Source of the DNA: Candidatus Woesearchaeota archaeon
GTDB taxonomy: Archaea; Nanobdellota; Nanobdellia; Woesearchaeales; UBA11576
Assembly: GCA_018675335.1 (NCBI GenBank)
Contig: JABGYH010000005.1
Span: forward strand, 62,001-126,000
Direction of reading: 5' to 3'
DNA: 64,000 nucleotides
Shown in pieces: positions 6,906 to 35,226 of the stretch. The translations under genes and the position numbers were made by a program. The notes beneath the pieces were generated by a model, which did not search any database, was not told the origin of the DNA, and saw only the letters and a list, made by a program, of their open reading frames with translations. Positions within the stretch are counted from its first letter, which is position 1; every line of letters starts with the position of its first letter.

Positions 6906-6909
6906 AAAA

Positions 6910-8903: not shown

Positions 8904-9848
8904 TTAACTTTTTTTCTTAACTGATTTAATTCTTGCTCTCATTCTTGGTTTTTTATGTTTTGGAAAAACTAATTGTACTGTTTTAAATATTACAATTCTT
9001 GCAAACACAAGATAAGAAAAAACAAGTATCACACCTATAATAAAAAAGCCAGTAACACTTTGAACCAGAAGAGGTATTCTAAGTACTAATTCTATAACTA
9101 GCGCTAAAACACCTAAAAATATAATTGATGGAATTATCTGAGGGAATTTTTTTATTCCAATAATGAATGAATTAACAAAGTTTTTGAAAGATTTTCTTTT
9201 CAAAAAACAAAATGATATATTTCCAAAATACCAAATAATAATTAATCCTAAAACTAAAAAGTATTTCCATAATGGTGCAGGAAGTAATACTGCAGGACTA
9301 AGTTTTGAAAGTATGTATGATCTTAAACAAAAAAATGACCAACCAAATGTTAAAATTAAAAAAGGAAGGGACTGTAATGCAAAATTTTTCCAATACTGAA
9401 GTAATGTTAATTCATATTCAGGCTCAATTGGAGTAAGTTTATTATTCTTTGTTGCAGCCTTAATTGAAAATCTCCAAGCAAATACTTGAAATATAATAAA
9501 ACATATCAAAAATGCTAGCATCATAATAAAAACATCTTTCATAATTGATCCAAATAATTCTACAAACTCAGGATTATTGGCAATTACAGATAATTTTGTT
9601 GCATCTTCAGGGGTTAATATATTAGTAAGCCCTCCTGTTTCAGTTCCGAGTAATTGAAATAAGCTTATGATTTTATTTAGTATAAACACTGCAATATAAG
9701 AATAAATCATAGCAAATATGAATACAAATAAGAAATCAAAAAGAATAGTTAAAAAGAAATATACTGGATTTTTAAGAATGGACATACCCGAATCTTGAAT
9801 TATATTAACATAAAATTTCAACCGTTGTTCTAATATATTTCCACCCAT
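8904..9848 (-). CDS. Polytopic membrane protein, about six membrane segments
   Basis: About 314 residues, mostly hydrophobic, with about six membrane helices and a Lys/Arg-rich C-terminus. No enzyme motif. I choose the ATG at 9848 over a TTG six codons upstream because a TATA-like element (TTTAAATA, 9874-9882) lies about 30 nt before it. It closes the long minus-strand cluster of surface proteins. A six-segment protein of similar size and layout closes the other half of that cluster (23328-24167). Both begin with a short charged region then a helix of the type FFLTILFDFLF / FFYTFLLDCTLY. Paralogy is likely but weakly supported by eye. It could be a permease-like or assembly component. Confidence 0.7.
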   Translation of the reverse strand: MGGNILEQRLKFYVNIIQDSGMSILKNPVYFFLTILFDFLFVFIFAMIYSYIAVFILNKIISLFQLLGTETGGLTNILTPEDATKLSVIANNPEFVELFGSIMKDVFIMMLAFLICFIIFQVFAWRFSIKAATKNNKLTPIEPEYELTLLQYWKNFALQSLPFLILTFGWSFFCLRSYILSKLSPAVLLPAPLWKYFLVLGLIIIWYFGNISFCFLKRKSFKNFVNSFIIGIKKFPQIIPSIIFLGVLALVIELVLRIPLLVQSVTGFFIIGVILVFSYLVFARIVIFKTVQLVFPKHKKPRMRARIKSVKKKS

Positions 9849-9873
9849 TTTGTATATAACAAACAAATTTGTT

Positions 9874-9882
9874 TATTTAAAG
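9874..9882 (-). promoter_or_regulatory. TATA-like element before the 9848 start
   Basis: CTTTAAATA on the minus strand, centred about 30 nt before the ATG at 9848. It suggests this membrane protein gene has its own promoter although it follows the 9942-10775 gene on the same strand. Confidence 0.45.
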
Positions 9883-9941
9883 ATTATGGTGTCACAATAT
9901 TATGATTTAAAAGGAGTTGTTTAAATGAGATGTTTAGTTTA

Positions 9942-10775
9942 TTAGTTATTTATTGAGATCATACAGAACTCTTGGGAAATATACTCTGAATTTTCAGTTA
10001 TCAAATCACAATGTTCACTAACTGAAGTTTTTATTGCAACTTTTTGATAACATTCATTTCTTGAATTAAAACCTGTTTCCCAAACAATATTTTCACAAAA
10101 TTCAATATCATTTCGTTCTTCTGCAATATACATATAGCATGCGTCTTGAGAAAACGGACCTGACAATTCATAAATAAAATTACAATAAGAAGGATCTTGA
10201 TAAACTCTCGCATACCATTGATAACAATAATCTTGAGAATATTCACCAGTTGGTACGGGAATTAAATCGCATAAACCAGGTATTTGTAATTCAATAGCAA
10301 GTTCTGATAAACAATGAGGATAAGAATAATCTCCATCTAAATCTGTTAAGGATTCACATAACTCAGCATCTTTCTTTACTTTTGCAACCATAAAAACACA
10401 TTGATTAAAAGACCCTTCTCCTTCTTCTTTGCTTAAATGTTCACAAAGCTCTGCATTTTGTTCTTCAATTGCAGATTCAATTAAATTAACTGAATTTTGA
10501 TCTAATTCTTCAGACTCATTAAGTGTTGTTTGAATAACTCCTTTTACAATTGGTGAATCTACGTCTGAAATATCTGGAACTACTTTAGTTGAAGATTGTT
10601 TTGAACCAACTAAAAAAATCACTAATCCTGCTAAAACAATAATTGTAATAATTATTGGAATTATTATTTTCAAATCTAAAAACTTATTTTTATCAAATCC
10701 AGAACTTAAAGAATCATCTGACTTGGAAGGTATATCAAATTCAAGTTCTTTTTTTGATTTAGTTTTTGTTGACAT
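9942..10775 (-). CDS. Membrane-anchored protein with six 29-residue di-cysteine repeats
   Basis: 277 residues: a basic and acidic cytoplasmic N-terminus, one membrane segment (37-56), a linker, then an extracytoplasmic repeat domain from about 108 to the end. Cysteines fall at 111, 126, 140, 155, 169, 184, 198, 213, 227, 242, 256 and 271: spacing alternates 15/14 without exception, so six perfect 29-residue units, each of the form xLCexL...C-Y-x-x-A. The length suggests a helix-pair solenoid, probably with a disulfide per unit. I do not recognise a named family. It begins 10 nt after the end of the 694-residue secreted protein gene, so it is in the same operon. Confidence 0.85.
   Translation of the reverse strand: MSTKTKSKKELEFDIPSKSDDSLSSGFDKNKFLDLKIIIPIIITIIVLAGLVIFLVGSKQSSTKVVPDISDVDSPIVKGVIQTTLNESEELDQNSVNLIESAIEEQNAELCEHLSKEEGEGSFNQCVFMVAKVKKDAELCESLTDLDGDYSYPHCLSELAIELQIPGLCDLIPVPTGEYSQDYCYQWYARVYQDPSYCNFIYELSGPFSQDACYMYIAEERNDIEFCENIVWETGFNSRNECYQKVAIKTSVSEHCDLITENSEYISQEFCMISINN
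9963..10445 (-). repeat. Coding region of six exact-length 29-residue Cys-pair repeats
   Basis: Protein-level tandem repeat, residues 111-271 of the preceding entry. The unit length is invariant (87 bp) while the residues between the cysteines have diverged strongly, so this is an old repeat under structural constraint and not a recent DNA expansion. Confidence 0.8.
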
Positions 10776-10785
10776 TTTTAATTTA

Positions 10786-12870
10786 TTAACAATTTAAAGT
10801 AATTGTTGCGTAAGCAGGAGTTTTACCTGCAGTTACTTTCTTTGATTGAGCTGGACCATTAGTACACTCATTTTTAAAAACAGATGCAGTATACATTCCA
10901 GGTTTTAATTTTTTAAACGTTACAGATTTATTACTATTAGCACTTAACTGATTTACAGTTTTTGGTACTTCCTTATCAGCAGAATCTGTCAGAATTACTT
11001 TTACTCCCGAAGTAGCTTTTCCTTTATTTACGACTTTTACTTTAAGACTTCCAGTAGTCACTTCAACTTCTGCCGCAGGTGCTGCGCCTTTATTTTCACA
11101 TTGAGCAGAATTTGTAGCATAAAAACAACTACTAATTCCTCTTTGAGCTAATTTACATACGTCATTATGACATTGAGTTTGTGAAAAAGTAACAGAGGAT
11201 CCTCCTCCTGGAATTGTTACTCCAGCAGTATAACTATTGCAAGAGGTTACTTGATTACAAACAGCACAATGCTTGGATGAAACATAAAATTTACCAGAAT
11301 TATCTTTACAATAATAACCATTTGAAACTTCCACTCCATTACCATTAATAGGTGCAAGACATTTTGGTTTATCAGCTAAAGATTCAGATAAAGGACAAGT
11401 AGAATAACACATTTTCTTATTCTTTATTGTTGTTTTAGTATTCGCAACAGGATCAACACAAGTGCATTTACCACCAGGAGATTCGCATTTAGTATTAGTA
11501 TAAATTTCATCAGGAAGCCATTGAGCATGACTTGCAGTGGGAATGGTAAATGATATTTCACCTATATTACTTGCAGGACTCGGACCACTAATAATTTTGG
11601 TATTTGGATGTTTAATATTAAATGCTAAGTTACATTGACTTAAATCACCTTGATATGAATAAATTAATTGAGCAGTGTCTTTTGCTTTAATCCAATTATA
11701 TCCATTAATGGCATAAGAGGTAAAACATTCTTTAGGCGCACTTTTTTTACACAGCCTTTTATCTGTTCCTCCAAATGTCCAAGAATTAGAAATACATGCA
11801 GGATTATTTGTAGGTCCACAAATCATTTTTGAAGTAATTTCTATTAATTTACAAGCAGGTTTAGTACAAACACCAACTTCAAGTCCGTTGATATATTTAT
11901 TAGCATAACCTTTACTAAACGTATAATATTTTAATCCTGTTTCACCCACACCACAAGTTTCAGTAACATATGGTTTTGGACAAGAAGTATCAGAACCAGA
12001 TGCACCATAAAGATTATTTATTTTATAAAAATCTACTTTTGGAATTGGTTTATTGGGTAAATTTTTTTCAGCATCATCAAATATGCTTTTTAATGCTGAA
12101 GGACATATAATTCTATTAACTTTTCCAACTCCTGCAGACTTTGATCCTCCAGATCCACTTCCCCCCGAACTTCCAACATAACAACCAGATTTTGCAGGTT
12201 TATATTGTTTTTCTAAAGAATGTTTTTCAGCTCCAACTTTTCCTGGACAACAATATAAATCACCAGGACATTTTCCTTTACAAGGTGTTTGGAAAACTCC
12301 TGCATCTTTAAGACAAGAATTCTCAGCTAAATCAATACATTGACCAGGAGTAGTAGTTGAACCCCCCACATCCCCGCAACCTTCATTAGCTTTAGAATCT
12401 TTAACTGCAAAATTATAAACATTGCCTTTACTTAATTTTAATTTAAGATATTTATAAGCCGATTTTGATTTACCTCCACTTCCACCCGTGTATGACGGCG
12501 CGCAAGAATCAGTAGGACTCAGTTTACATTTGCCATCAAAACAAAATTCAGAATCTTTTCCATAAGTAGCCAGGCTACAATCTTCTTTTTTTGCACAAGA
12601 TGAACAACTTGAACTAAAACTAGTACAGTAATTATATTTAATAATTATATTTTTACCCGTAGGACCGTTGGGAAAATATTCGACAAATCCCGCATAAACC
12701 CCTCCACAATATGAATCAGACTCGCACTCAGAATCTTCAACACACCAATTTGAAGGTATGGGTGCTGCCCCTAAAGGACCAAAAAATTCTATTGCAGTAA
12801 CCATAACTCCACTAAGCACAGCCAATAAAACAACTAATACAAATCCTAAAAATAAATGTTTTAGTTTCAT
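10786..12870 (-). CDS. Secreted Cys-rich protein with C-terminal Ig-like/CNA-B-like domain
   Basis: 694 residues. An N-terminal signal peptide or anchor (about 5-27) leads to an exported protein with many cysteines in short CxxC or Cx3-6C clusters over residues 40-590, rich in Gly and Ser, and with the phrase CCPGK. The last 90 residues (from EVTTGSLKVKVV) look like a small beta-sandwich of the carboxypeptidase-regulatory/CNA-B kind (VILTDS, LKPGMYTASV). The ATG overlaps the stop of the 2695-residue protein in an ATGA, so translation is coupled and the two are probably made together. No enzyme motif was found. Likely a partner subunit of the giant surface protein. Confidence 0.8.
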   Translation of the reverse strand: MKLKHLFLGFVLVVLLAVLSGVMVTAIEFFGPLGAAPIPSNWCVEDSECESDSYCGGVYAGFVEYFPNGPTGKNIIIKYNYCTSFSSSCSSCAKKEDCSLATYGKDSEFCFDGKCKLSPTDSCAPSYTGGSGGKSKSAYKYLKLKLSKGNVYNFAVKDSKANEGCGDVGGSTTTPGQCIDLAENSCLKDAGVFQTPCKGKCPGDLYCCPGKVGAEKHSLEKQYKPAKSGCYVGSSGGSGSGGSKSAGVGKVNRIICPSALKSIFDDAEKNLPNKPIPKVDFYKINNLYGASGSDTSCPKPYVTETCGVGETGLKYYTFSKGYANKYINGLEVGVCTKPACKLIEITSKMICGPTNNPACISNSWTFGGTDKRLCKKSAPKECFTSYAINGYNWIKAKDTAQLIYSYQGDLSQCNLAFNIKHPNTKIISGPSPASNIGEISFTIPTASHAQWLPDEIYTNTKCESPGGKCTCVDPVANTKTTIKNKKMCYSTCPLSESLADKPKCLAPINGNGVEVSNGYYCKDNSGKFYVSSKHCAVCNQVTSCNSYTAGVTIPGGGSSVTFSQTQCHNDVCKLAQRGISSCFYATNSAQCENKGAAPAAEVEVTTGSLKVKVVNKGKATSGVKVILTDSADKEVPKTVNQLSANSNKSVTFKKLKPGMYTASVFKNECTNGPAQSKKVTAGKTPAYATITLNC

Positions 12871-15800
12871 ACTGTGCCTCCTTCAATTTCCCAGCAGGGT
12901 GCAATTCCACCTGATGCAGCACAACTTTGTATTCCTTCTATTTTGGTACCTGGATCTATTGAATATCCCATTCTTGCCACAGGAATTAATAATTCAACAT
13001 CTTCTGTTACTTGTCGGGTATCAACAGTCATACTAAATCCTTTTTGATAATTTCTTATAATAACTTGACCAGAAGGTATTGCCCCCCCATTAGCGCCAGT
13101 AATTTTCACCCCATAATCTTCAGGATTGTTTTGACTCAAATAAAGTTGACCTGTTTTCAAATAAGCAAGAGTTTTTAATAATTGAGCACCTTGTTTTTTT
13201 GCCATTCCACTCACATGAATTGTCCCTTTTGGTTCTTTATTAATAAAATATATTTTTATTTCCTTTGCAGTTGATATATAACAAGGTTCAATTCCTGAAG
13301 TTGGAGTTTTATTTTCGACACATCTATCCAAATCAGTTCCACCTAAGTTAATTTTTGCATTAGTCGGATCAAACAGTAATCCATAACCCGTATCTCCAAA
13401 TTGTTTACCTAAGTTATACATTTTAACGTAGGTATACTTTGCCAGATTAGCTTGTGCTTTCATTTCTAACTCTAAATCAAATCCATCAGAATTTAATTTA
13501 AAATTACTAAATATAAATTGCAATGTTGTTTTATCAGTATCATCAACATTTCCTTTTTTACTAAAAATTTCAAGTCCATAATTTTTTTCATTAGTTTTCT
13601 TTGATTCTGAAATTAATACTGGACCTTTACCAATATTTGCTACAGTTCCATCGGCTCCGCCTACAAATAATTGTGTTACAAAATAAGATGCATCTCCAAA
13701 ATTATCATTAGTAACTCTTATAGTAACATAATCTTCTTCAGGAATAAAACAATTATCATAACTTAAATCAGTTTTACATTCTTCTAACGCAACAAGTCCA
13801 CTTTTTACTGATGCGGAAAGTCCTGAAAATTTCAAATTTTTAACTTTTATTTTAATTCCTGCATAAGGCGCTGTTGAATCAATTTTCATGTCTATTGCAA
13901 ATCCATCGGGTTTTTTCACATAATTTTTAAGAGTTGCAATATCCATTAAATCAAGTTCTACACCATAATCTGCTTGGTTTGCTAAATTTACTTCAGCAGG
14001 TCCTGCACAAACATACCCTATAGTTTTTAATGTTCCACAAATTCCATTATTATTTGATTGATCACTCAATCCATGCATCATTAATGTTCCTGATTCGCTT
14101 AATTGAACTCCAATTATTACTCCACTATTTTTGATTTCAAAAATACAAGGAGTTCCTGATGAACATGATTCAGGTAATGGTTTTGCTTCATAACTTCCAC
14201 CACCAACTGATACATTATAAAATAATTTTGAAATGCCAGTTAAGAATTTTAAATTTGCAGCACCTAAATTAATATACACAATTGGATTTTGATCAACAAT
14301 TTTAAATGCTAATGTTTCAATTTTTTGACTGTCAATATTTGTATCATCATAAGGTCCAATTAATATTGAACTTCCTTCACCTAAATTATTCAACCATACA
14401 CCATGTTTAGGTAATGATTCAGTATTATTTGAATAATAAGGGGTTGGAACTTGAATCAATTTAAAATTAGCTCCGTTAGGATCATAATCATTTCCAAAAG
14501 GTTTTTTACAAACTATTGGAATAGTAAATTCTTTTTTAATTTCTGCACCATTTGGATCTTTTGAAACTATTAGTGATGGTTGATAATATCCAGTACCTTC
14601 AATTTGTTGAGAGTCATAAACTTTCATACTTATTTTGAAAGGAATTGGGTCAGTAGTACATTCGGAAGATAACACAGTACTTGTTTGTTGTTCTTGTTCT
14701 GATTTTGGAGTATAACTAACAGTAAATGTTTTTTCTTTAATTTTTGATTCATCGCCTTTTTCTAAAATAGGTTTTATTACTTTCATTTCAAATTCTGCAG
14801 CATACTTAAAAGAAATATCCCCACATTTAACATCCCGTTCAGTTTTATCTAAAATACACTCTTTGTCAGTTTCAGTCGGATCAGGTGCAAAATTTTTACC
14901 ACCTTTAGTAATTTCTACTGAACCTAAAGAATATAAAAATTTAAAATTCTTACCTTCTGGTTTAAACATAATTTTATACGCATAATTTGAATCACTACTT
15001 GCACAAACAACTGGAAGTTTATTAGGCATTAATGTCATCCAATTATTATGAAACATGTTTTTAACATTTTTGAATTTATCACCAAAAACACATTCTTGTT
15101 GTTCTGCAGCAGTCCCATATCCTGAACTAAAGAATTCTTTCTCAACTTTAAATGCAGGAACTCCTCCTAATTTGAATGTATCTCCATAAAATGTTATATC
15201 ATGCACTTTGTTTGCATTCAATCTTATTTTTTCAGGTGCTTGTGAACCTGAAGGCCAAACAATTGAATTTGTTCGAGTATTATATACTTCATCAACTACT
15301 AAGTATTTTGTAAATTCACAATCTTCAACACAACTATCCATTTTTCCATCTGGAATTACTTGGCCGATTTGTGTTTTAAATAATGCTTCATCCCCCACAT
15401 ATACAGGATTTCCTTTTCCTCTTGCAGATTCTGGTTCAAGTAAAAATTTTATCATTCCAGTTTTTGATTTTCCAAAACTACAAGTAAATAAATTAACAAC
15501 ATCAAACCCACAATATGATGGTGTTCCACCCATTTCACTAATTTTTCTAGATTCTGATCCTTTGAGTGATGCAGGATTTGAATTAGTTGTTATTACACCT
15601 GAACTTACTTGACCAAGTGCAGAAGTTCCACCATTTGATCCTTGTGTTGGATTCCATTCAATTACTAATTTATCATATCTTACTGATTCTTGTATTTGAA
15701 CTATTATTTCCTCATCACAAGAATCTCCTTGTTTAAGAGTTCCGGATTCAGGACAACTTCCACTAAAACCTGGTTTAACTAATTTTCTTCTATAAGATTC

Positions 15801-18800
15801 ACTAACAGATCCGGAACAATCACACTTACCATCATTTGAATCTTCACAAAATTCATCATCCCCACTACATTCTAAATATAAACTATATTGTATATCAGAT
15901 CCAGCACTTATAAAATAACTAAATCTATAATTAAATATTGCTCGACCATTAGCACCAACTCCATTAAATCTTCTTGTAGCTTGCACTAATAAAGCAGTAC
16001 TATTAATTGGCATTGTTGTTGCTCCTTGCCACATAGTATCCCAATCAGTTGGCCATTCTCCTGTGAATGCAAAAATACATGCATCATGAATTAAATTTTG
16101 CGCAGTAAATTGTTGTGCAAAGAAATTATTATCACCATATCTTGATGATACTTCAGATGTCGCACTAGAACTTGCATCACCCATAGATGCAAATAATCCT
16201 CCAACTCCACCAATTCCTGATTCTCGCCCATGTCCACCCATAGTTTTTGTTAAACAACTAATTGCTTCATATAATAAATCACAAATATATTGACTTATAA
16301 GATTTTGACATACTCCCGCACTTCCATCTCCAGTTAAGAGAATTGTTTCAAAGCATTGTTTAAGCATCATCATCATATTTTTTAGATGTTTAATCCAACT
16401 AAGAATTGCCATAAAACATAATGAAACTAAACTTTGAAATAATGATGCTCGAGGATCAACCACATTTATGTCATCTACACTTCCAACATTTCCTACAACT
16501 TCTTCGTATAGTCTTTCAACTATTTTGTTTTGAGATCCCAAAGAAACTTTAGATATTGGAATAAGACCTTGATCTGCACCTGCAACTGTTGGAGTTACAT
16601 CAGTTTTACTTGCGCCTTGATCAACACCCAGATTATTAATGAATGATGCAGTTTTATGATCTACAAAAACTTGGGGTGCAGGATTTTGCATATCTTGCCA
16701 AAATGCTAAATGTGCTTGATCTTCAGGTACTGCTTGTTCATTTTCAACATTACTTGGATCAATTCTATCAAATGCTTCCACAATATTTTGTCCAACAGGA
16801 ATAAATTCTAAATTAGATGATAATTTTAATGTTTGATCTTTGGAAACTGTTCCATATAATGGATGAGTAGAATTTTGATCTACTAATTGAAGATACGAAT
16901 CAGATACTCCATATCCTCTTTGAACACTAGTTAATTCTCCACTTGCAGAGTATTCAATCATATAATATACTTTCACATCAGGATTTACAATGCCTAAACT
17001 TTCCATATATGTTCTTTTATATCTTGCAAGATTTGGAGGCAAGAATGCTATAGTTGATGATTTTGTTTTTGGTTCACAAAGTCCAGTTGAACTTTCCACA
17101 ATTTTACTTCCAATACTACATTCATCAGCATCATGATCAGTTAAACAATAACTTTGTTTAATTTCGTTTAAAAATATTGCACCCCATTCAAAATCATCCA
17201 TGTATGTAAATGGACAACATGCTGCTTGGTACGGATGAGGTTCAGAACATGCTTCTTCAAGAGTTTTTCCACTTGGAAGAGTTCCTTTATCAAATCCTAC
17301 TTTTGCACCTTTATCAGTGTCAGGACCATATTCATAAAGATAAAATAAATCTTTAATTGTTTGCCGGGTAGGTTTTGCAAATGAGCAATCAGATTCAACA
17401 TCTTTAAACATTTTTGTTGCATCTTTAATATTTGCTTTATCGTCTTTACCTTGTATGAAATTTTCATAGGTTATGAATTTTTTATAATCATCTACTGATT
17501 GATCTTTTTTCTCAGTTGGATTTTCAGCTTCTGCCCGAACGTCTTTTACAGCTTGATGATTCTCAACACTCATAGGAACTTCATCAACTTCTTGTCCACC
17601 CTTATAATAAGTAGATCCATCTTCACTTATCGAATATCCAGTAGATCCAATGGGTTTACCAGATGAACTAAAAATTGATGTTTGAAATGAAGATTTTATT
17701 TTCATTCGTTGTTTAATATAATGTTGTAATGTTGGTACTGCAGGACAAAATATTCTATCACACACAAAATTAAATTTATTATCCCAACTTTTTTTGGTTT
17801 GAATTGCATCAGCACATTGATTACATGCATTTTCTGCACTAGAATCTTCTTTTGGTCCACCTTCACCAAATAATGGAGTACAACCACCAAATTTTGCTAT
17901 ATCTTCTATTGTTTGTCCTTTTCCTATAACTGATTTAACTATTCCACCAATAGAACTTTTTTCACTCATAACATTTGAAAATTTACAAGCATAAGATTTT
18001 CTAAAATTCATAAATAATTTTACAACAAATGCACCTAAACATAATGCAAATGTGATTTCTGTAATCATCTCAAGTGGTTTTTCTAAAAATTCAATTACTT
18101 TTATTGATGCATTTAAGAAACTCACTGATGCTTCTAAAAAACCAACTGGCAATATTGAAGGATCAACTCGCTCATCAATTAAAACATTATATTCAATACA
18201 AGTTTTTTGTATTGTAGGTTCAACATAAGTATTTGATTGTTCACCACCAATTCCGTATTGTTGTTGTGCAAGCATTGGTTGATTTCTTTGGAAATTAATT
18301 TCCATCATCATCTTAAATCTAAAACAACCAAATCCAGGTATACACTCATCTCGACGATGATCACTAATATTTTTCTCCATCTGATAAGTAGTATTACCAT
18401 CAACTAATGGTTTTTTAAATGTAAGAAGTACTGAACCATACGACCAATTTTGCGGAGGATGATATGGTGGATTAACAATTGTTGCCCACTCATTTATGTT
18501 ATCATATTTTTCATAATCAAGTTTATTTAATGTTGCAGGTTTTACAGTAATACTAGAAACACTTGCACCTTCTCCACCACCAATCCAAGTTAAATTATAT
18601 TCAAATCCTGTTGCTGCAAGACCTTCAAGTATTTCCCTAGTATTAAGTGCAGCACTTGATTTTGCAGTTTGTATACTATAATAAAAGCCACTTCCACAAC
18701 TAGTAAGAGTAATAGTTCCTTCTACAGGATCACTTTCTTGTCCTGATTCATCTATTGCTACAATTTTTACAACATTATCATATGCCCCGCCAGATCCTAC

Positions 18801-23091: not shown

Positions 23092-23327
23092 TAAATAGTT
23101 CACCCTCTTTTAAAATTACTAATGCGTAATCAAATATTAAATTTTGTTAACATCATTTTGTAAACGTCATTGCTAGCTAACCACAAAATAACTAATAACA
23201 ATAATAATAATTATTTTAAAATATTTCCCCATAAACAACTTATTTATATATTAAAAATATTTTTGATTTAAATACTTTACTATTTTTATTATAATAGAAC
23301 TAGTTTTCTCGGCGAATTCATAAAAAT

Positions 23328-24167
23328 TTAATTTGAATGTTTCAAATGTTTTTTCAAAACTGCAAAGTAGTATAAACGTAACCAATTAAAATATGCAACA
23401 AAAACAATTACAGATACGATTACAGAAACTGGCACTGGAAGTTGTAACGCAATTAAAAAGAAAAAATTCAAACAAACAAAAATAAGTAATGCAAAAAGTA
23501 TTGGTTTGATAAACTTTTGAAAATCAAAAATAATTAATTTATAAAATTTTAAAAAACTTTTTTTCATTTGTTTATGTTTTGTTAAAAATAATAATAAACT
23601 AATAATTAAAAAATTAGAAACTAACAAATATGCTGTTTGAAAAATAAAAAATCCTATTTGCAAACTAGCTGAATGATCAAATTCAGGACCAACAAAACTA
23701 AAAAATAAATATTGCAATCCCAAATTTAAAAGAATAATTATTAAAATGCCGAATAAATTAAACAAACTAAATTTACTTAAAAGTTTCCATTCAAATTCTT
23801 GATCCAACATAGATTTATAAATTAAATATTTAATCGTAAAAAATGCCATAACTCCGACGAGAATTGCCAAAGTAGAATTAATAATTATCCTATAAAACCA
23901 CGCTTGTGCAGATTGAGCAGATAATATTAATCTTTCAGTTTGATCAAATTTTCCTTCTTGTAATGGTTGCATTGCATCTTTTAACAATGGACCAAGTGAT
24001 TTTATTGAAAGTACCCAAGATAATAAAATAATTAATAAAATAATATAAAGAGTACAATCTAACAAAAACGTATAAAAAAATTTTTTATTAAATTTAAATG
24101 AATTTAAAAAAATCTTAAAATCAGTTTGTTTCTTTATTCGCACATTATGTTTTTTTTTCATTTTCAA
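23328..24167 (-). CDS. Polytopic membrane protein, about six membrane segments
   Basis: 279 residues, Lys-rich start (MKMKKKHNVRIKKQ) and about six hydrophobic helices: near 30-55, 90-115, 135-155, 170-195, 215-240 and 245-265. It has no motif I recognise. The ATG overlaps the stop of the 1172-residue secreted protein (ATGA), so it is translationally coupled. It is the last gene of the 35.2->23.3 kb operon, in the same place as the membrane protein ending the second operon. It may anchor or export the large proteins made upstream. Confidence 0.75.
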   Translation of the reverse strand: MKMKKKHNVRIKKQTDFKIFLNSFKFNKKFFYTFLLDCTLYIILLIILLSWVLSIKSLGPLLKDAMQPLQEGKFDQTERLILSAQSAQAWFYRIIINSTLAILVGVMAFFTIKYLIYKSMLDQEFEWKLLSKFSLFNLFGILIIILLNLGLQYLFFSFVGPEFDHSASLQIGFFIFQTAYLLVSNFLIISLLLFLTKHKQMKKSFLKFYKLIIFDFQKFIKPILFALLIFVCLNFFFLIALQLPVPVSVIVSVIVFVAYFNWLRLYYFAVLKKHLKHSN

Positions 24168-27100: not shown

Positions 27101-27682
27101 ATAACCTAATTTAGATCTTGTTAATTCTGCTTGAGACCTTGCAGCAGTATAAGCCGCCCCACCATATAATCCAACTCCTGCAATCCCAATAATAGTTCCT
27201 TGATCATCATATAAATTTCCAAAAGAATCAACTTTATAACTAGACCCCGCAACAGGCGTTGCATCAGTAGGCATTATTGGATCGTCAACATCATCCTCAC
27301 CACCTTTAAGTTGAGCTTCACCATCCTCTTCTTCAGGATCTGGGCTGTTTGGTTCCACAACAGTTGGTACAACATCAACAAACCCCCCACTCATAATATC
27401 ACCAAAACCCGTATTCGTCACGCCACCCGCACCCTGATAATTAAATGTGCCTTCATCAGGATTAATATCCAAAACCTCAATCACATGACTTTTAGTAGCT
27501 TTTTTAGGAGTTTTATCACCCACTTGATAATACTGCCCCTTTTTAATATGCATAGTTTTGCCTGCTTCAAACTGATGCGCGCAATCTTTAGACCCAAGAA
27601 CGCTGCCCCCAGGACAAGCACCAAATACACTACCAACTAGCACAACCATTACAAAAATCCAAATTAAAATTTTTAGTTTCAT
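24164..27682 (-). CDS. Large secreted protein with DG-x-LY repeats, Cys-rich region and Ser-rich tail
   Basis: 1172 residues. A signal peptide (about 1-21, ending VFG-AC) starts an exported protein. Residues about 150-560 hold six clear and one poor copy of a repeat of the form V-x3-DG-x-LY-x3-G-x3-G (FGNLYDDQG, DGTVYKEG, DGQVYDGDG, EGNLYTSKG, DGTLYKGG, DGLLYDKKG). A Cys-rich region (about 570-900) follows, with many spaced cysteine pairs. The protein ends with a serine run and PPSPDF. Both ends overlap neighbours in ATGA coupling (27679-27682 and 24164-24167). No family is recognised; the repeat could form a beta-propeller-like or solenoid structure. Confidence 0.8.
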   Translation of the reverse strand: MKLKILIWIFVMVVLVGSVFGACPGGSVLGSKDCAHQFEAGKTMHIKKGQYYQVGDKTPKKATKSHVIEVLDINPDEGTFNYQGAGGVTNTGFGDIMSGGFVDVVPTVVEPNSPDPEEEDGEAQLKGGEDDVDDPIMPTDATPVAGSSYKVDSFGNLYDDQGTIIGIAGVGLYGGAAYTAARSQAELTRSKLGYAQFKAHVEGLEEKRDDLPADTNLVDLGDDLEYDAYEDTFFYHNQPVDREYVDGLVAERDIDLNQLRDASSATPVEGNPEYRVRSDGTVYKEGRAIGTVDSLTPAVLATLQSAGSPLDISKVQAAHAQAGLPTTKPDDVVTTPMPIKVESDDVVVNIGSDGQVYDGDGKRIGTVGVGDYADDSFELHVEMAKEFSLAKPSTVRYDGDMIYVDPEGNLYTSKGVYAGNLDDSDSELVWGNDFASLKSAQLTAKSISSAKQVPGYDDVSVGVDGTLYKGGVAWTGAKADDFRSKNSKLISDTRLSASLTPVTGSSEGYQIGHDGLLYDKKGVAVPLDKATAFLSNPTNYESISAAKATASGVEPKPSSVFSPTSVSTPAKCPVGKCTIASTIIPKSDLSNYDKKPNPVSIDGAVHEPFFNKKTKQWDYCKGEGCSSDPNHPNYNEHEGISGNMKITTLPTKAQQDAMSAELKQAADSSLTAQKDAERAAGLQDLATKARACETTADPAVCSEVEKALKEQGAAPEGSKTAGILAQIGTDLEKGRTQAKINTFSSPNELAKLCKTDKECTPMEIKTDGAGNVQACESGTGTCYKFPGQTCVYNCGGNFVLDSEGNQYNCKQSDLSCSDAKAACGDGCSIAAGGKPTMRDSEAGGTELQPAAICESNECKPGETFICKRADCQHADDIAKCGDKSCTLAGKMGEGYDDKKGETVYYYWTPTSVTNLLSGSHATGISRTISKWALGGKEGLWDVETMLAIKNALNVEQWISTGCLSAGDDPSNDGVGLSRSSSSSASVAVQGTRYEIDPCRGLTGTIQTKCVENVSTKYNLTSSGTYYTYRITGRVVSQQCPMDYNIELRKGLLSKKVYKKWYPVEPGNSSDFGGANSLISNDTYSTEYDTVCIVFSNENAKDVNGETVKVRSCVNQEVWLQDDDTTICNDIIAADDHKNLQFEEASSQDAPGYTSSSSSSSSSSSSAPPSPDF
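26003..27235 (-). repeat. DG-x-LY tandem repeat region in the 1172-residue protein
   Basis: Degenerate protein-level repeats about 50-80 residues apart. Core is an aspartate-glycine, a small residue, L/V-Y, then G and a second G about 5 residues later. Spacer lengths vary, so this is an old duplication and not a DNA-level tandem repeat. Boundaries are approximate. Confidence 0.6.
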
Positions 27683-28521
27683 TCTACGAATAAGTCCATT
27701 GTTTTATTGATTGTTTGTTCGGATATAAAATCTTGAACAACTATTTTGAGTGTGTTATGCCCTTTTGGCATTAAATGAAATTTGTCTGAGTAATCAATAT
27801 CAAATTCATAGTGATTAAAGTTTGAATTAAATACTCCTGTTATTCTTACAATTTCAAGGTCACTTAATTCATCAATTAACTGACCAGTTGGTGAATAAAA
27901 CTCAACTCCGCAGACCATATTCATTAAATATCTTAGTCCTACTTGTTGTGTTTTAAATCCGGTAACGACTGTTTGTAATAATACGTCTTCTCCTTCTTTG
28001 AATGTTGTTCCTCGAGGAGTCATGAGTTCAAAATCTTCGACAAAGTTTGTTCCAACAAATGTTAGTTCTCCTTTAGTATAAAATACTTTTTGTACAACAG
28101 GTTTTTCTTGGACTGTTTCATTAACGACCTCTACTGGTTTTGGTTGTTGCAAAACCGGTTTTACTTCAACTGAATCAGTTCCTTGCATGAAATAAAATAT
28201 TGATCCTCCTGCTAAAAAAATTACTACCAACACAATTAATATTACTGCGGGAAATTTGTGTGTTTCCGGCGGAGGAATTGGTTGTTGTGATTGAACAAGT
28301 TGTGGCTGTTGATACCCAGGACGTTGTTGAGGATATTGTTGAGTTTGTGGATATTGTCTTTGTTGTTGTGGATAAACCGGACGTTGTTGAGGATATTGTG
28401 AAACAGGTCTTGGTTGTTGTGGATATTGCGGTTGTCTTTGTGGATAATTTTGTGCAGGATTTTGAGGATAATTAGATCTAGGTTGTTGATTCCAATTTCC
28501 TTGATTTTGTTCTCCCACCAT
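27679..28521 (-). CDS. Membrane protein with Pro/Gln/Tyr-rich cytoplasmic N-terminus
   Basis: 280 residues. Residues 1-88 are low-complexity, built from YPQQ/RP/QYPQ units and very rich in Pro, Gln, Tyr and Arg. A membrane segment follows (about 91-111), then an extracytoplasmic beta-rich domain of about 150 residues (YTKGELTFVG ... GVEFYSPTG). The topology is inferred. The ATG follows the stop of the 28522-31875 gene with no gap (TAAATG), and its own stop overlaps the next ATG. The tail resembles prion-like or SH3-type Pro-rich tails in composition only; it may allow clustering at the membrane. Confidence 0.8.
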   Translation of the reverse strand: MVGEQNQGNWNQQPRSNYPQNPAQNYPQRQPQYPQQPRPVSQYPQQRPVYPQQQRQYPQTQQYPQQRPGYQQPQLVQSQQPIPPPETHKFPAVILIVLVVIFLAGGSIFYFMQGTDSVEVKPVLQQPKPVEVVNETVQEKPVVQKVFYTKGELTFVGTNFVEDFELMTPRGTTFKEGEDVLLQTVVTGFKTQQVGLRYLMNMVCGVEFYSPTGQLIDELSDLEIVRITGVFNSNFNHYEFDIDYSDKFHLMPKGHNTLKIVVQDFISEQTINKTMDLFVE

Positions 28522-31500
28522 TTAATCATCTTTTAATGCTTGTTCACAAAGATCTTTTCCTAAAGCGTCCCATCTATCTCCAATTCCAACAAATGTATCT
28601 ACTATTGATAATAATGTATTTGCATATTCGAGTCCAGAACATGCAGCACAAATACCTGATGTATCTCCCGCAGCACATTTTGCACTGCAAGCATAATCTA
28701 TTATAAGTCCAATTCCATTAAATGGATTTAAAATTAAACTTTCTATTTGACCCATTAATTGATCGAGCATTTGTACATACGGAATTGTGTTTAGTGCTTG
28801 TCCCCACCAAAATGTACATGTTGCTGTTCTAAATTCTAAATCACATCCTGATACTGTTCCAACTCCATATGCAACGTCTTGTTTCATACAAATTATTTTT
28901 CGACACCTAATTTGTCTTAATTTTTCTAAATTGTAAAATATTCCAGGTAAGCATCCAGTCATTGCTGATGCGAACATACTTTTGTAGGGGTCAAATGTTG
29001 ATGCATCGTAAAGAGTAAAATCTCTGTTTTCTTTTCCTGCAAGTCTTTCTCCCCATAATGGTCCAGAAGAAATTTGTACATTGAGTAAATCCACAACATA
29101 TGTTCGCCAAGTTGCAAACGCTTTTTGTATTTTACACCAGGTTTCACAAGGAGTTTCATCTATACTTTTTTCATCAACCATTTTACAAGAAATAAATAAT
29201 GCGCAGGCCATTATTACATCTTTTAGCATATTATTTTTTTCAACTTTTACTTTTTCTGTTTCTTTTGAGTTTTCTCCTGCAGCACTACAAAATGTTTGAT
29301 ATGTTGCACAAGCTGCACCTTCAACCATCCCTACTGCTGCTAAAACTCCCATAACAGTATTTAATGTATCAACCATATCGCATGCAAATCGTAAATAATC
29401 AGTTATTATTTTAATCCATTTTACTGCGTCCCACCAACCAGTTGTTACCCAATCAACATCATCTTGTATTTGCTTTTTTACATTTCCAAGATTGGATCCT
29501 ATTGGATTGTTCATAGCTTTTATTTGAAAAGTTATGTTTTCTATTTCAGGAGCAGTTATTGCTCGATTGTTCACAATTGATACTATTGATGCTTGACAAG
29601 TAAAATTAAATCCTTCATATACTACTTCTCCCGTATCATTATCTCCTTCAATGAGTGATGGAGGAACGTGAGATGGATTAAATTCAGCTAAAAAAATATC
29701 AGTTATTCCATCTGAAATATCTGGATCATATCCCATTGGTAAAACTCTAAAATTACCATCTTCATCATACATTAAGTATTCTGATCCTTCTCCCTCACAA
29801 GAATTAGGATCAAATTCAAAAGTTGCCATCTTAACTGAAGAACCATAACGCGATGTTATTATTTTTTTATTAAAAGTTTGTGGTATTGATATACTCCAAG
29901 CAAACCGATCTAAATATTGGGGAGATACGCTGTCTTCATATGTTAATTCATCCATCATCCAATAATCAGGAGTTTCGTTATCTTCAACCCCTAAGACTAC
30001 AACATCCAAATCTTCTTCTAAAACATGTTCTAATCCGTCTATGAATTTAACTCCTATTACAGTATCTAAAGGATCTACTGTTGCAGGTCTTTTCATTGTT
30101 GCATCTGATTCCCATTCACAACTAAACAGTCTCTGATTATTTTCAACACCCACTTCTTCACAATTTCCTTCAACTGAATGATGCGCCATATTTGTTTGGC
30201 CATCTTCCATTAAACTTGAAAAATTAGCATAAGCAATTACTGGAGTATGATCAGTTACATTAACAGTCAATAATACTTTATCTCCAGAAACAATTACTGA
30301 ATGACCTTCATATCCAGGAAGAACTAAATCGGAATAACTTCCATAAAGTCCAATTCCTTCGATACTATGATTAATTATTTCCGATGAATCTTCATCAAAT
30401 TTAAAAACTCGACTAACAGTTGTTGGAGTTTCTAAAAAATTTCCTGCATCGTCTCGTGAAGGATTAACAAAAGTTATAGTTATTGCATCCCCACTTTTAG
30501 CATTAGAATTTACTTGAATATTTTTCCAAGTACAAGTCCATCCAGATTCACAACTATGAGGAATTAATATATTTCCAGTTCCCCATTCTAATTCTTGTTG
30601 TCCAAATGTTGAAAAATCTGCGTATATATATTTATTATCTAGTCCACTTCCAGTTTCAGTAAAAACTGCACTAATATCATTTCCTGTTTTATTTATCCAC
30701 GGAACTCCTTTTTCATCTTCATAAAAACCAATTATTTTTGCAAGTTGCGGAGGAGTATTATCAAATTCAATAGGATATGTTTTTGATTTATTCATTAAGT
30801 TCCCATTTATATCAGTTACAGAGAATTGAAGATTTAATCCTTTTTGTTCGGGGAGCATTTGAACAACTAATACTTGAGGAGTTCTACATTGATAAATTCC
30901 TTCTGTTGGTTGTATACAAATAAAATTAGTAAATTCTTTGTAAAATTGAGCATATGCTGGAGATGGATTAATTCCAGTTAAATCAGCAACCAATGTTCCG
31001 TTAAGTCCTTTATCTTCTGAAATATTAATAATTAGTGCAGCATTTTCAATGACTTGCCCATTTGAACTAGTTATAGTATTCCCATTTGAGTCAATAAAAA
31101 TTAATTGTTCAACATTAGGGGGTGTTTTATCAAGTTCAATATCATGACAAATTGGTTTTGAAACAATCCCAATATTATCAGTAAGTTCCATACAAATATG
31201 TTTAGTTTCAGTCCCTTGTACTGCAATTGGTAAATTTATTTCTCCTATTTGTTTACATTTATCATCAAATGTGGTATTAATTGCAATAGTATTCCCATCA
31301 ACATTAAATCTTAATTCTTTAACTCCACTACATTTTCCAGAACATGCAGGACCAACACAAGATTTATCTTCAATATCAAATGTTGCCCAAGTATGAGTTT
31401 CATTCATTTGAAAATCCCAAGTCCCACTTGGAGCTAATCTTTCCACTAAAACTTGTCCTCCTTTCGGCGGAGACATAGGCATATTTGCATCATTAAATAA

Positions 31501-31875
31501 TTGAACTTTAAATGATAATACATTCATTGAGGGAGGAACACTAAATTCAGGATTATTAACATTACAACTCCACTTTCCTAATGTCGCATTTATTAATTCA
31601 CATTCAAATTGCCATCCAGGTTCTTCAAGAATTTTTACTTGATTTGCTCCTAAATCATTATCTTCGGTTGATGAAATAGTAGAATTAACAATAACTGTTA
31701 GAGTATCTGTTGATTCAATAAATCCTTGGTCTTGATTTATTATTTGTTTTTGACCATATACATCAACATTAGTTATCATTGCAGCATTTACTTCAGATAC
31801 ATAAATAGGTAAAGTAATTATTAAAAATACCATAAATATTGCAATTTTTTGCAAATCTTTTTCACGAAAAATCAT
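28522..31875 (-). CDS. Large surface protein sharing a four-Cys membrane module with the giant protein
   Basis: 1117 residues from the ATG at 31875, which overlaps the previous stop as TAATG; another ATG at 31890 lies five codons upstream. A signal/anchor segment (about 11-31) precedes several Ig-like beta domains (about 35-700). The C-terminal third has hydrophobic helices near 830-860 and many cysteines. C975, C996, C1011 and C1020 have exactly the spacing of C1513-C1558 in the 2695-residue protein with no gap, plus matching Gly residues, so this module is shared. No enzyme motif. Second in the operon, right after the pilin-like 746-residue protein. Confidence 0.82.
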   Translation of the reverse strand: MIFREKDLQKIAIFMVFLIITLPIYVSEVNAAMITNVDVYGQKQIINQDQGFIESTDTLTVIVNSTISSTEDNDLGANQVKILEEPGWQFECELINATLGKWSCNVNNPEFSVPPSMNVLSFKVQLFNDANMPMSPPKGGQVLVERLAPSGTWDFQMNETHTWATFDIEDKSCVGPACSGKCSGVKELRFNVDGNTIAINTTFDDKCKQIGEINLPIAVQGTETKHICMELTDNIGIVSKPICHDIELDKTPPNVEQLIFIDSNGNTITSSNGQVIENAALIINISEDKGLNGTLVADLTGINPSPAYAQFYKEFTNFICIQPTEGIYQCRTPQVLVVQMLPEQKGLNLQFSVTDINGNLMNKSKTYPIEFDNTPPQLAKIIGFYEDEKGVPWINKTGNDISAVFTETGSGLDNKYIYADFSTFGQQELEWGTGNILIPHSCESGWTCTWKNIQVNSNAKSGDAITITFVNPSRDDAGNFLETPTTVSRVFKFDEDSSEIINHSIEGIGLYGSYSDLVLPGYEGHSVIVSGDKVLLTVNVTDHTPVIAYANFSSLMEDGQTNMAHHSVEGNCEEVGVENNQRLFSCEWESDATMKRPATVDPLDTVIGVKFIDGLEHVLEEDLDVVVLGVEDNETPDYWMMDELTYEDSVSPQYLDRFAWSISIPQTFNKKIITSRYGSSVKMATFEFDPNSCEGEGSEYLMYDEDGNFRVLPMGYDPDISDGITDIFLAEFNPSHVPPSLIEGDNDTGEVVYEGFNFTCQASIVSIVNNRAITAPEIENITFQIKAMNNPIGSNLGNVKKQIQDDVDWVTTGWWDAVKWIKIITDYLRFACDMVDTLNTVMGVLAAVGMVEGAACATYQTFCSAAGENSKETEKVKVEKNNMLKDVIMACALFISCKMVDEKSIDETPCETWCKIQKAFATWRTYVVDLLNVQISSGPLWGERLAGKENRDFTLYDASTFDPYKSMFASAMTGCLPGIFYNLEKLRQIRCRKIICMKQDVAYGVGTVSGCDLEFRTATCTFWWGQALNTIPYVQMLDQLMGQIESLILNPFNGIGLIIDYACSAKCAAGDTSGICAACSGLEYANTLLSIVDTFVGIGDRWDALGKDLCEQALKDD

Positions 31876-34115
31876 TAGTCCGACACCCATTCTGGTTTTA
31901 ATTTATCACTTAATATTATTGTGTAATCATCCACCATTTGTAATGTATCTAAATATGGTCCAGCACCCATATCAGAAGCAAAATTATTTGGAGGTTGAAA
32001 TGAAACAAAAATAAAATTTACTTGTTTATTATTCATTAATTGTTCTTTAGTAATTTCTAAATATCCAGTTTCATTAGTGTATTGTATACCACCTAATTGC
32101 CACTTATCAAATTCAGTTCTATTTAATTTAACTTTTTGATCTTCACCAAAAGGAACTGAAAAAGTTTTTGTTTTTTCATTTATGACCCAACCATCTGTTT
32201 TTAATAAATATCCTTTCACTTCATATTTTCCTGGTGCGAGTAATAATGATTGAGGTTTAGAATCTTCGGACGGATCATATTTTAAAAATGAAGTAAACTC
32301 CCCAAATTCATCATCAGCAATTCTATTAAATAGAGCATATGCTTGATCTTTTTTTACTAAAGGAATAACTTCTGAGTTAGTTCCTAAAAAATGTTTATCT
32401 GTAACTTTATCATAATCTAATAATAATTTTTTTACAGTTGAATTAATTTGAAATAAAGGTAATAATCCAAATGAATGATTGCTTGTTTGATTTCTTAATG
32501 CACCAAACTTTTGTACAACAGGTAAATGATCTTTTGCAATAATTCTTATTTCTCCAGAACCTACTGGAAATTTTGAAGTTATTGTTGATTTATTTTCTTC
32601 GTTTAATTCAGTAACACCAACAAAACAACTTTCAGTACCAACTTGAAATTCAATTTTTGCACCTGGCAAAGGAGTTTTATCTATTTCATCATATGTTTCA
32701 ACAGTTATTAATCCTGTATTCCAAAAATCAGGATTGCATAATTCAGTTCCAACATACCCTCCATATTGCGCACTAAAATTTGAACCCATAATATCATTAT
32801 TTCTTACATTAGATTCTAATGCAAAAACAAATTTGAATGTTTCTTTTCCTTTGAATGCTCGATCATCAGTTATAGTTGCAATAACTGGAAATGATACATC
32901 ATAGTAAAAAACATAATCATTAACTACAAATAAATTTAATAACGGAATTAAATCTGCGGCAGGAAGCCCTATTTTTGACGGAGTCAATAATTCTTTATTA
33001 TTAATATTTAAATAAATTGGCCACCAATCAAGATAAGCGAAACTTACAGTTAAATCTTTTAACCCTGGTGCTTGTGTTTCATTTACGCTGACTAATGTTT
33101 TATCAAGCATTCCAGTAGAAACTGGATCAATTCCTTCTTCATCAAATATGATTGATCTAAAATAATTTTTTGCACCAAAAACTTGTAACATTGCCATTCC
33201 TCCAGGAAGAATGAAATTTTCAATTCTTTTTTGAGTTTCAGATCTTGTCCAAAATAAAAATTTGGTATTATCAAAATCTACATCACCTATTGGTGGAAGA
33301 CGGTTCATACTTAGTGGTTTTGAATACATACTAACTAAATTCATAGAATGTATTTCTAAAAATGATAAAGATAATTCTGAATCAGTAATCTCAGATGCTG
33401 CATCATAAATATCTTTTAATGCTAAATCTACTCGAGTAAAATATTCTTTAACATCTACTTGCACATCCCCTTTTGTTAATTGTATTGGATATTTTGTAAA
33501 TATAGATACGTCTTTTGTAGTTACTTTCACATTAGGACTTATTTCGCCTAAGGGTACAACTAAAAATCCTTGTTTTTTGAATGTTCTAAATTTATTTAAA
33601 CAATCAGGCAATTTTTTTACTATATATTTTTGTAATTGTGCTTCTATTGATTTTTCACTATCTTCAGTTTTATAAAGTGGTGGACGATTTGAAGCAAATA
33701 AACAATTATTTGTACAAGAATTATCAGATTTTAAATACCACCAATAAGGTATTAACCCCGAACCATTAAATATTTCTATAGCATCTGAATTAGTCGGTTC
33801 AAATCCAGTAATAAATGCAGTTCCTGAAAGTTCTATGTCAGTCGGATCAATGTATCCCCCATGCGCACCAAGTTTTTTTAGTCCATCAACTGCAGTTTCA
33901 TGAATACAATTTTCAACAAATATTTTTACTGGTTGGATTTCTAAGGGCACTTCTTCGGCTTGAGATAAAAATCCCTCTCCCATATCATCAACAACTTTAT
34001 CTTTTATGTAAAATATGAGTGCTGTTGTAAAAAGTAATATAATTCCAATTATCATAAACACAGTAATTTGTGCTTTTTTATGTTTCCTAATTTTAAACGT
34101 TGGACTATTTCGCAT
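31875..34115 (-). CDS. Pilin-like KKAQ-TVF membrane-anchored surface protein (paralogue of 21016-23091)
   Basis: 746 residues. KKAQITVF at 13-20 leads into a hydrophobic helix (about 19-40), like a class III prepilin signal but without a Glu at +5. The rest is extracytoplasmic. Shared blocks with the 691-residue protein: FVENC ... TAVDGL-x3-GA-x-GGYI, PYWWY, then a DCLNKFRTFK block. Residues 480-640 include carboxypeptidase-regulatory-like beta repeats (DKTPLPGAKIEFQV). It starts inside the last 11 bp of the upstream gene. Each of the two KKAQ proteins is followed by a giant Cys-rich protein. Confidence 0.8.
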   Translation of the reverse strand: MRNSPTFKIRKHKKAQITVFMIIGIILLFTTALIFYIKDKVVDDMGEGFLSQAEEVPLEIQPVKIFVENCIHETAVDGLKKLGAHGGYIDPTDIELSGTAFITGFEPTNSDAIEIFNGSGLIPYWWYLKSDNSCTNNCLFASNRPPLYKTEDSEKSIEAQLQKYIVKKLPDCLNKFRTFKKQGFLVVPLGEISPNVKVTTKDVSIFTKYPIQLTKGDVQVDVKEYFTRVDLALKDIYDAASEITDSELSLSFLEIHSMNLVSMYSKPLSMNRLPPIGDVDFDNTKFLFWTRSETQKRIENFILPGGMAMLQVFGAKNYFRSIIFDEEGIDPVSTGMLDKTLVSVNETQAPGLKDLTVSFAYLDWWPIYLNINNKELLTPSKIGLPAADLIPLLNLFVVNDYVFYYDVSFPVIATITDDRAFKGKETFKFVFALESNVRNNDIMGSNFSAQYGGYVGTELCNPDFWNTGLITVETYDEIDKTPLPGAKIEFQVGTESCFVGVTELNEENKSTITSKFPVGSGEIRIIAKDHLPVVQKFGALRNQTSNHSFGLLPLFQINSTVKKLLLDYDKVTDKHFLGTNSEVIPLVKKDQAYALFNRIADDEFGEFTSFLKYDPSEDSKPQSLLLAPGKYEVKGYLLKTDGWVINEKTKTFSVPFGEDQKVKLNRTEFDKWQLGGIQYTNETGYLEITKEQLMNNKQVNFIFVSFQPPNNFASDMGAGPYLDTLQMVDDYTIILSDKLKPEWVSD

Positions 34116-35226
34116 TTTTCGTATTTTTTTCTAAACTTTTTTTACAAGCAAATTTATAAAATTCTGATCCTACCTTTTCACAAACAGGCAATAGTTCTGC
34201 TTTTGATTCTCCAAGTTGAGTATTACGATATGTCGTAATTACGAGTAAACATATGTCTTTTGCCTCGCCTGTTTTTTGTTCACAAAAGTCAGGAGAAACA
34301 CTTTCAACTTCTTTGAGTTCATTAATTGTGATATCAACCATTGCAGTTGATCTCTGATAAAAATTCGCACCAAGAGTAATTCCAATAAGTAAAGTTACAA
34401 TCCAAAATGAAGTAACAACATAAACAAACACTTTATCTCTGTGTTGCACTTTTCGTTCTCTAAAATATTCTGCATAAAAGTATTTTTTCTCGTGGAGAAT
34501 ATACCAAATTATAACTCCATTAACAAGGAGTAATGTAAACAGGGAAAGATAAAGAAGTCCTTTGAAGACCATGTATTCTTTAGAATCAAGCAGCAATAAT
34601 GATAATAATGAATTAACCAATGCAAAGCCAAACCAAGCAACAGACAAATCAAATGTGTATGCTTTTCTCATCCAAAATCCATAAATCATCAATACCAAAA
34701 GAATTACAAGTGCACTGTTAATCACAAGTGCTCTTACTCCTGAGACAACTGTTCCAAATAATATGCTTGTCGGAAAGGTTATTCCTTGCCAAAATGATAA
34801 TAAGTAAAGTGAGAGAAGAAATATCAAATAACCAATTAATAATTTTATCCCTAATGGAATATGATATTTTCCTTTATGAATTGGAGAAGGTACAAAAAAT
34901 TCATCTTTGAATTCTTCTTCTAAATGTTTTAATTTTTTTTCTTCTCTTTGTAAGAAGGAGGGTTTTTTTCTTTTTACCTTATGATGTTTAACGGGTTTAG
35001 AATGCGATTTAACTTTATCAGAAGTTTTAGATTTAGACAAAATTTTAGTTTTAGACAAAGATTTAGATTTAGAAGTTTTACTTAATTTTTTAGAAGATTT
35101 AGTTAAACGAGGTTTTGCAATTGATTTTTTAGAGTTAGAATTTGATTTTACAGGTTTTTTTGAAGAAACTTTAGCAAGGGAACTAGCTTTAGTCTTTTTA
35201 CTATCAGTACGTCCCCTCTTTTTCAT
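34105..35226 (-). CDS. Membrane protein with Lys/Ser-rich tail and C-terminal Cys pairs
   Basis: 373 residues. Residues 1-105 are a strongly basic Lys/Ser tail (SKSKSLSKTK type), like a histone tail and probably cytoplasmic. About five hydrophobic helices cover about 125-300. The last 65 residues hold two cysteine pairs, FCEQ-x8-C and VCEK-x9-C, that resemble the CE-x-L...C units of the 277-residue protein, though with 11-12 residue spacing. The first six residues MKKRGR also start the pilin-like protein at 23091. An SD (GGGAG) precedes the ATG. First gene of the 35.2->23.3 kb operon. Confidence 0.75.
   Translation of the reverse strand: MKKRGRTDSKKTKASSLAKVSSKKPVKSNSNSKKSIAKPRLTKSSKKLSKTSKSKSLSKTKILSKSKTSDKVKSHSKPVKHHKVKRKKPSFLQREEKKLKHLEEEFKDEFFVPSPIHKGKYHIPLGIKLLIGYLIFLLSLYLLSFWQGITFPTSILFGTVVSGVRALVINSALVILLVLMIYGFWMRKAYTFDLSVAWFGFALVNSLLSLLLLDSKEYMVFKGLLYLSLFTLLLVNGVIIWYILHEKKYFYAEYFRERKVQHRDKVFVYVVTSFWIVTLLIGITLGANFYQRSTAMVDITINELKEVESVSPDFCEQKTGEAKDICLLVITTYRNTQLGESKAELLPVCEKVGSEFYKFACKKSLEKNTKNAK

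Follow-up and report, generated by a model that had tools for sequence, protein, structure and literature searches.

The closest described counterparts of the system treated here are giant surface proteins of DPANN archaea. The family fam00969 comprises giant secreted proteins of up to about 3,000 aa that carry an SLT domain and occur in the same lineages, as set out in the available parts of two accounts (Castelle et al. 2021, PMC8204110; Vigneron et al. 2022, PMC9723730); in those parts, single giant SLT proteins were proposed to bind or degrade bacterial walls (PMC8204110; PMC9723730). The SPEARE proteins of Nanohaloarchaeota are very large surface proteins for which host attachment was proposed; their domains are of the laminin-G, serine protease and (type III) restriction-enzyme-like kinds, and most of them have a TM segment at the C-terminus (Hamm et al. 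2019, PMC6642349). In Nanobdella aerobiophila and strain YN1, an attachment organelle at host contact sites has been seen by imaging only (PMC11104419, PMC11420986). Archaeal peptidoglycan hydrolases are active, kill bacteria and are prominent in Nanoarchaeota (PLoS Biol 2025, PMC12352652). For the most abundant uncultured DPANN, the way in which cells make contact with a host and the nature of that host, archaeal or bacterial, are open questions.

The window analyzed here is a stretch of 64,000 nucleotides from a Candidatus Woesearchaeota archaeon (assembly GCA_018675335.1, contig JABGYH010000005.1). It harbors tandem paralogous surface cassettes of Nanobdellota, which are best read, with modest confidence, as a contact apparatus that would attach to other, probably bacterial, cells and would breach their wall where hydrolases are present. 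All 11 minus-strand open reading frames of the preliminary description were confirmed with their coordinates. They form set A (35226-23328, minus strand) and set B (23091-8904, minus strand), preceded by metG:

metG, 35420..37861, minus strand, methionyl-tRNA synthetase upstream of set A (Pfam tRNA-synt_1g, 1.3e-154)
A1, 34105..35226, minus strand, basic-tailed membrane protein with about 4-5 TM segments, accessory of set A
A2, 31875..34115, minus strand, K protein of set A, with a KKAQ prepilin-like signal and a single helix
A3, 28522..31890, minus strand, giant G of set A, 1122 aa, with a signal sequence and Ig-like repeats
A4, 27679..28521, minus strand, Pro/Gln-rich single-TM accessory protein
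A5, 24164..27682, minus strand, S protein of set A, secreted (iterated profile, window member E 2e-26)
A6, 23328..24167, minus strand, MP protein of set A, multi-pass with 6 TM segments (iterated profile with B5; alignment of 23)
B1, 21016..23091, minus strand, K protein of set B, with a KKAQ start, homolog of A2
B2, 12867..20954, minus strand, giant G of set B, 2695 aa (Pfam fn3, 1.9e-15)
B3, 10786..12870, minus strand, secreted Cys-rich accessory protein
B4, 9942..10775, minus strand, single-TM accessory protein with repeated Cys pairs
B5, 8904..9866, minus strand, MP protein of set B, multi-pass with 7 TM segments

Tight gene junctions of the kind reported earlier are present: in set A, overlaps of 11 nt (A1/A2) and 16 nt (A2/A3), a TAAATG junction (A3/A4) and an ATGA junction (A4/A5, 27679-27682); in set B, an ATGA junction at B2/B3 (12867-12870). 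Because A6 and B1 are separated by an AT-rich gap of 236 bp, the sets are probably two units; promoter and terminator scans of the gap gave results at chance level only. Upstream, metG is a recurrent neighbor of set A in many relatives and lies outside the system itself. On the other side, a divergent cluster of genes for a MoxR AAA ATPase, DUF58-like, vWA and BatA/DUF7408-type proteins (window 3-7761, plus strand) adjoins set B, as similar genes do in the family member G002 and partly in G005 and G007. Open reading frames were called mechanically, and the genomes compared are mostly MAGs.

By sequence comparison, the two sets are two copies of one cassette, K-G-MP, so that the parallel tandem operons of the preliminary description can be upheld for three homologous pairs, including the multi-pass proteins with which both sets end. 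The K pair is recognizable directly (A2 against B1, BLASTP 2e-30, 26% over 468 aa). For the giant and multi-pass pairs profiles were needed, since single-sequence BLAST showed little: A3 against B2 gave a weak 0.039, whereas their family profiles matched at 3.8e-14 (98%, profile-profile) over a shared Cys motif (A3 965-1029, B2 1498-1562), with weaker profile-profile matches between the Ig-like parts; A6 against B5 gave nothing by BLAST and 2.7e-41 and 4.7e-35 by iterated profiles. No homology was found by BLAST between A5 and B3 or between A1 and B4, and no counterpart of A5 was detected in set B. Four genes, A1, A4, B3 and B4, are lineage-restricted and do not belong to the core. Some of the relatives (G002, G007, L070, L112, L125) have a homolog of A1 at the corresponding position, and some (G016, G019, G043, G052) have one of A4; homologs of B4 are limited to close relatives (G001, G003, G008, weakly G002), and for B3 no homolog was found in the loci examined.

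The N-terminus of K, with its start motif KK[A/G]Q, has the make-up of a prepilin-type signal, as judged from its basic residues, small residue and Q/hydrophobic helix. All 35 aligned K proteins have the Q that follows the basic stretch, and [KR][AGSV]Q occurs within the first 45 residues of 90 of 98. Glu at position 5 is replaced by F or I (F in all 32 B-type and in 78% of A-type K proteins); the tip pseudopilin GspK likewise lacks Glu5. The AF2 model of A2 (mean pLDDT 86) consists of one long N-terminal helix, an alpha/beta domain for which no match was obtained, and C-terminal beta-sandwiches. Foldseek returned beta-sandwich matches only (PDB, viral structures), the best single-domain ones being local matches to CnaB and carboxypeptidase-D transthyretin-like domains; no pilin fold was among the PDB matches. 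The viral matches, too, are local and confined to the beta-sandwich; those of baseplate-like type are not taken as a sign of kinship. Searches of PDB sequences gave nothing, and no convincing Pfam or NCBIfam family was found in 35 K proteins.

These features bear on a first alternative, in which K would be a large minor pilin or pseudopilin that primes a short pilus, G a PilY1-like tip adhesin, and a type IV motor encoded in the genome would extrude the whole, a type IV filament-like tip complex. The pilin-like start of K with its hydrophobic stretch and the GspK-like loss of Glu5 fit this proposal, as does the near-universal presence of a prepilin peptidase (230/236 genomes) and of a divergent T2SSE ATPase of about 771 aa (233/236), which in some genomes lies near a polytopic protein of about 735 aa. 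However, in the mapped loci neither an ATPase nor a platform protein nor a small pilin belongs to the cassette, the PDB matches of the K model include no pilin fold, four genomes with the cassette (G004, G016, G018, G021) have no T2SSF match at 1e-3, and the T2SSE ATPase is also found in K-less genomes. We regard the tip complex as possible, if somewhat doubtful; it is compatible with a contact apparatus, which on this view would also be actively extended and retracted. A classical pilus operon was dropped as an explanation, the cassette having no motor, platform or pilin, and so was a link between the occurrence of K and that of the type IV motor or prepilin peptidase, because motor ATPase and peptidase are both near-universal. 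The T2SSE ATPase locus itself (L106 8370-10685; L107 7651-15389; L109; L110) is conserved and separate from the cassette; in some genomes the ATPase is followed by the polytopic protein, which has no Pfam match, with several 5-TM proteins of about 190 aa nearby. It is possibly an undescribed type IV-like motor.

Both giants combine repeats with a conserved Cys-containing region. The C-terminus of A3 is a Cys-rich helical domain with the motif C-[LIV]-PG-[IV]-x-YN; its C-terminal 487 aa were modeled by AF2 with moderate confidence (pLDDT 63), and a Foldseek comparison of this model with the PDB gave no match better than E 0.03. B2 comprises FN3/Ig-like repeats (about 48-750), a conserved Cys core (about 1500-1700) and repeat modules near the C-terminus. 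The presumed surface location is deduced from the signal sequences, the Cys content and the types of domain. The S proteins are a fourth, widely conserved family belonging to set A: iterated profiles collect 35-39 members, nearly all located between G and MP of set A. They share a conserved C-terminal domain of about 260 aa and vary between genomes in their N-terminal part, which in A5 has weak internal repeats; members measure between about 140 aa (fragments) and 2,227 aa, and this variation falls almost entirely ahead of the C-terminal domain. MP proteins have 6-8 TM segments and no Pfam match. This membrane partner, together with the host-dependent lifestyle of relatives and the MoxR/vWA genes adjoining set B, could also fit a machine for the uptake of DNA or nutrients at the cell surface. 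Such a function is very improbable, since the cassette includes no transporter, nuclease, permease-like fold or ATPase, and the MoxR/vWA neighbors are confined, in the loci mapped, to the window and its family.

The gene order, which the preliminary description proposed to look for in other DPANN genomes, recurs widely across Woesearchaeota and Nanobdellota rather than being restricted to this genome, and the refuting outcome named in that description does not arise. A relative of B1 is present in 55 of 59 relatives, the K family occurs in 205 of 236 genomes of the phylum at E<=1e-10, and almost all relatives examined carry one or two copies of the cassette; the records include MAGs of Candidatus Woesearchaeota and Nanoarchaeota. 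In a first scan of genome contigs, B1 alone as a query gave no match. The usual order is metG, (A1-type), K, G, (A4-type), S, MP, K, G, MP, and one locus (L144) reads K-G-S-MP-K-G-MP, free of extras. G is the next gene after K (same strand, at least 250 aa) for 88 of 98 distinct K genes, with a median gap of -4 nt, and MP lies within 9 kb of 34 of the 46 G genes with 6 kb in view; these loci were chosen by K, G or SLT matches, and the counts therefore measure linkage, not frequency. Other families and orders of the class have one K-G-MP cassette only, with giants that match B2 in the central Cys core (3.4e-11; control comparisons with K, E 0.07 or worse). In a tree of 85 K proteins, built by a quick method with SH-aLRT support only, A-type and B-type proteins form separate clades (support 97-98), and the K proteins of other orders form a single clade beside the B-type. 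Read most simply, a single old duplication took place at an early stage of the window's order, and set B is nearer to the ancestral single cassette.

Several observations surround this pattern. The window's own genome contains a third, A-type cassette (L044 7399-14783; G000:C7:385000-404999) in the order G, small secreted protein, MP, K. At another locus of this genome (L045 1074-12553; G000:C7:435000-454999), Cys-rich proteins of 1123 and 1422 aa are followed by a KKAQ protein of 1261 aa, a distant K-like protein, and a second prepilin-peptidase-like gene lies nearby (G000:C7:432766). Small genes are inserted between G and MP of set A in L080 (10920-18337), L076 (12835-13823), L082 (13559-14559) and L067 (6417-11459); judged by eye, they look like nucleotidyltransferase/HEPN toxin-antitoxin pairs. 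One record titled Candidatus Aminicenantes bacterium (L087, JAFCCF010000010.1) bears this archaeal cassette, and its title looks wrong. At E<=1e-10, K is missing from all or some sampled members of families f38, f77, f84, f85, f89, f93, f95 and f96, which provide a natural contrast set; f93 includes two single-contig genomes of 0.6-0.7 Mb.

Conservation of this breadth raises a second alternative, namely that K and G are anchors or spacers of the envelope or S-layer, comparable to SlaB, with no specific role toward other cells. In addition to the presence of K throughout most of the phylum, the order-wide conservation next to a housekeeping gene and a local structural match of the K model to the S-layer protein SlaB (8qox, E 1.2e-6) speak for such general envelope architecture. 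The TM-scores of about 0.1-0.2 reduce the SlaB match to a shared beta-sandwich only, and this alternative explains neither the variable N-termini of S nor the SLT and amidase domains of some giants, for which the archaeal envelope offers no substrate. We consider it rather unlikely.

The hydrolase domains occur in sister lineages. An SLT lytic transglycosylase domain was first found by a Pfam scan in one K-linked giant of a sister lineage; tracking it across the phylum yielded 11 more genomes with an SLT giant directly downstream of K, 12 in total, all confirmed by Pfam. The catalytic Glu-Ser and GLMQ motifs are kept in 10 of the 12; the giant of L133 reads Glu-Asn, so that the catalytic Glu is kept in all 11 checked, and that of L129 gave no match in the motif search. 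Amidase_3 (N-acetylmuramoyl-L-alanine amidase) is present in two K-linked giants, those of L129 (which also has SLT) and L143. In L137, from the window's own order, SLT sits in the S protein. The place of SLT differs between giants, some having it in the N-terminal third and others close to the C-terminus; more than one gain is therefore probable. To our knowledge archaea make no peptidoglycan, and the target of the hydrolases should therefore be other, bacterial, cells. Such a bacterial target agrees with what had been proposed earlier on the basis of single genes (PMC8204110; PMC9723730) and with the activity of archaeal peptidoglycan hydrolases (PMC12352652). In the window, no hydrolase was found in A3, B2 or A5 at Pfam E<1, and the genome has no SLT or Amidase_3 match at 1e-5; the wall-attack reading is thus borrowed from relatives.

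For the contact apparatus that we favor, the following sequence of steps can be envisaged. The prepilin peptidase would trim K, whose helix would keep the protein in the membrane; K and MP would hold or export G, which would project from the cell and bear lineage-specific binding or enzymatic heads, and S would dock via its C-terminus and display variable modules. The cassette may thereby grip other cells and, in hydrolase-bearing lineages, open their walls; in the window's genome its action would be limited to adhesion or be combined with that of separate enzymes. The A copy would stem from the one old duplication and have specialized afterwards. We infer a physical interaction of K, G and MP from their linkage only. 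The adhesin-type domains (fn3/Ig in G, CnaB/transthyretin-like in K) count indirectly for a contact role; against it, so wide a distribution would fit a structural function in the envelope as well, and several families of the phylum that lack K are presumably symbionts too. What stands of the preliminary description is thus an undescribed, duplicated DPANN surface system with conserved gene order, and its suggestion of a contact role gains indirect backing from the sister-lineage hydrolases and the Ig/FN3/CnaB-type domains; no evidence was found for the uptake it also suggested. A bolder version, more tentative and in our estimate less likely than not, holds that K-G-S-MP is a phylum-wide modular contact-and-breach machine with a prepilin-processed anchor, a giant stalk and exchangeable heads (adhesive, lytic transglycosylase or amidase, with S attached via a common docking domain) that would select and open bacterial host walls, and that many Nanobdellota may live on bacteria, not archaea.

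With the cassette, most genomes of the phylum have a defined and conserved set of genes whose named parts lend themselves to expression, localization and use as markers; given the hydrolase-bearing versions, simple enzyme assays can put the hypothesis of bacterial hosts directly to the test. Compared with known systems, G resembles the fam00969 giants (PMC8204110) in being a giant secreted protein, with SLT in some members, from the same lineages, for which wall binding or degradation has been proposed, and fam00969 probably includes the SLT-bearing G members. Some K-linked giants of sister lineages carry the SLT domain typical of that family; most G proteins of the window's order lack it, including A3 and B2, as does A5. 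Unlike the present system, the fam00969 accounts, in their available parts (PMC8204110, PMC9723730), describe neither a K partner nor MP or S, and neither a conserved cassette nor its duplication. Like SPEARE, G is a very large DPANN surface protein; Pfam searches of both window giants and of 18 G proteins detected none of the SPEARE domains (LamG, serine protease, type III restriction-like). With type IV pili, archaella and Tad systems (minor pilin plus PilY1-type adhesin), the cassette shares a prepilin-like N-terminus and a pair of small and giant genes, and it differs in having no motor, platform or pilin, and a K protein with neither Glu5 nor a detected pilin fold. The organelle of Nanobdella aerobiophila and YN1 is also a surface structure of Nanobdellota, known only from imaging. 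The hydrolases surveyed in PMC12352652 are likewise archaeal peptidoglycan hydrolases aimed at bacteria; that survey concerns modular hydrolases, whereas here the hydrolase is an optional module within a conserved surface cassette. Since the K, S and MP families and the K-G-(S)-MP cassette had no match in the libraries searched or in the open-licence literature, we call the cassette system new; one part of it, the SLT giants, was probably glimpsed before as fam00969, apart from its partners and context.
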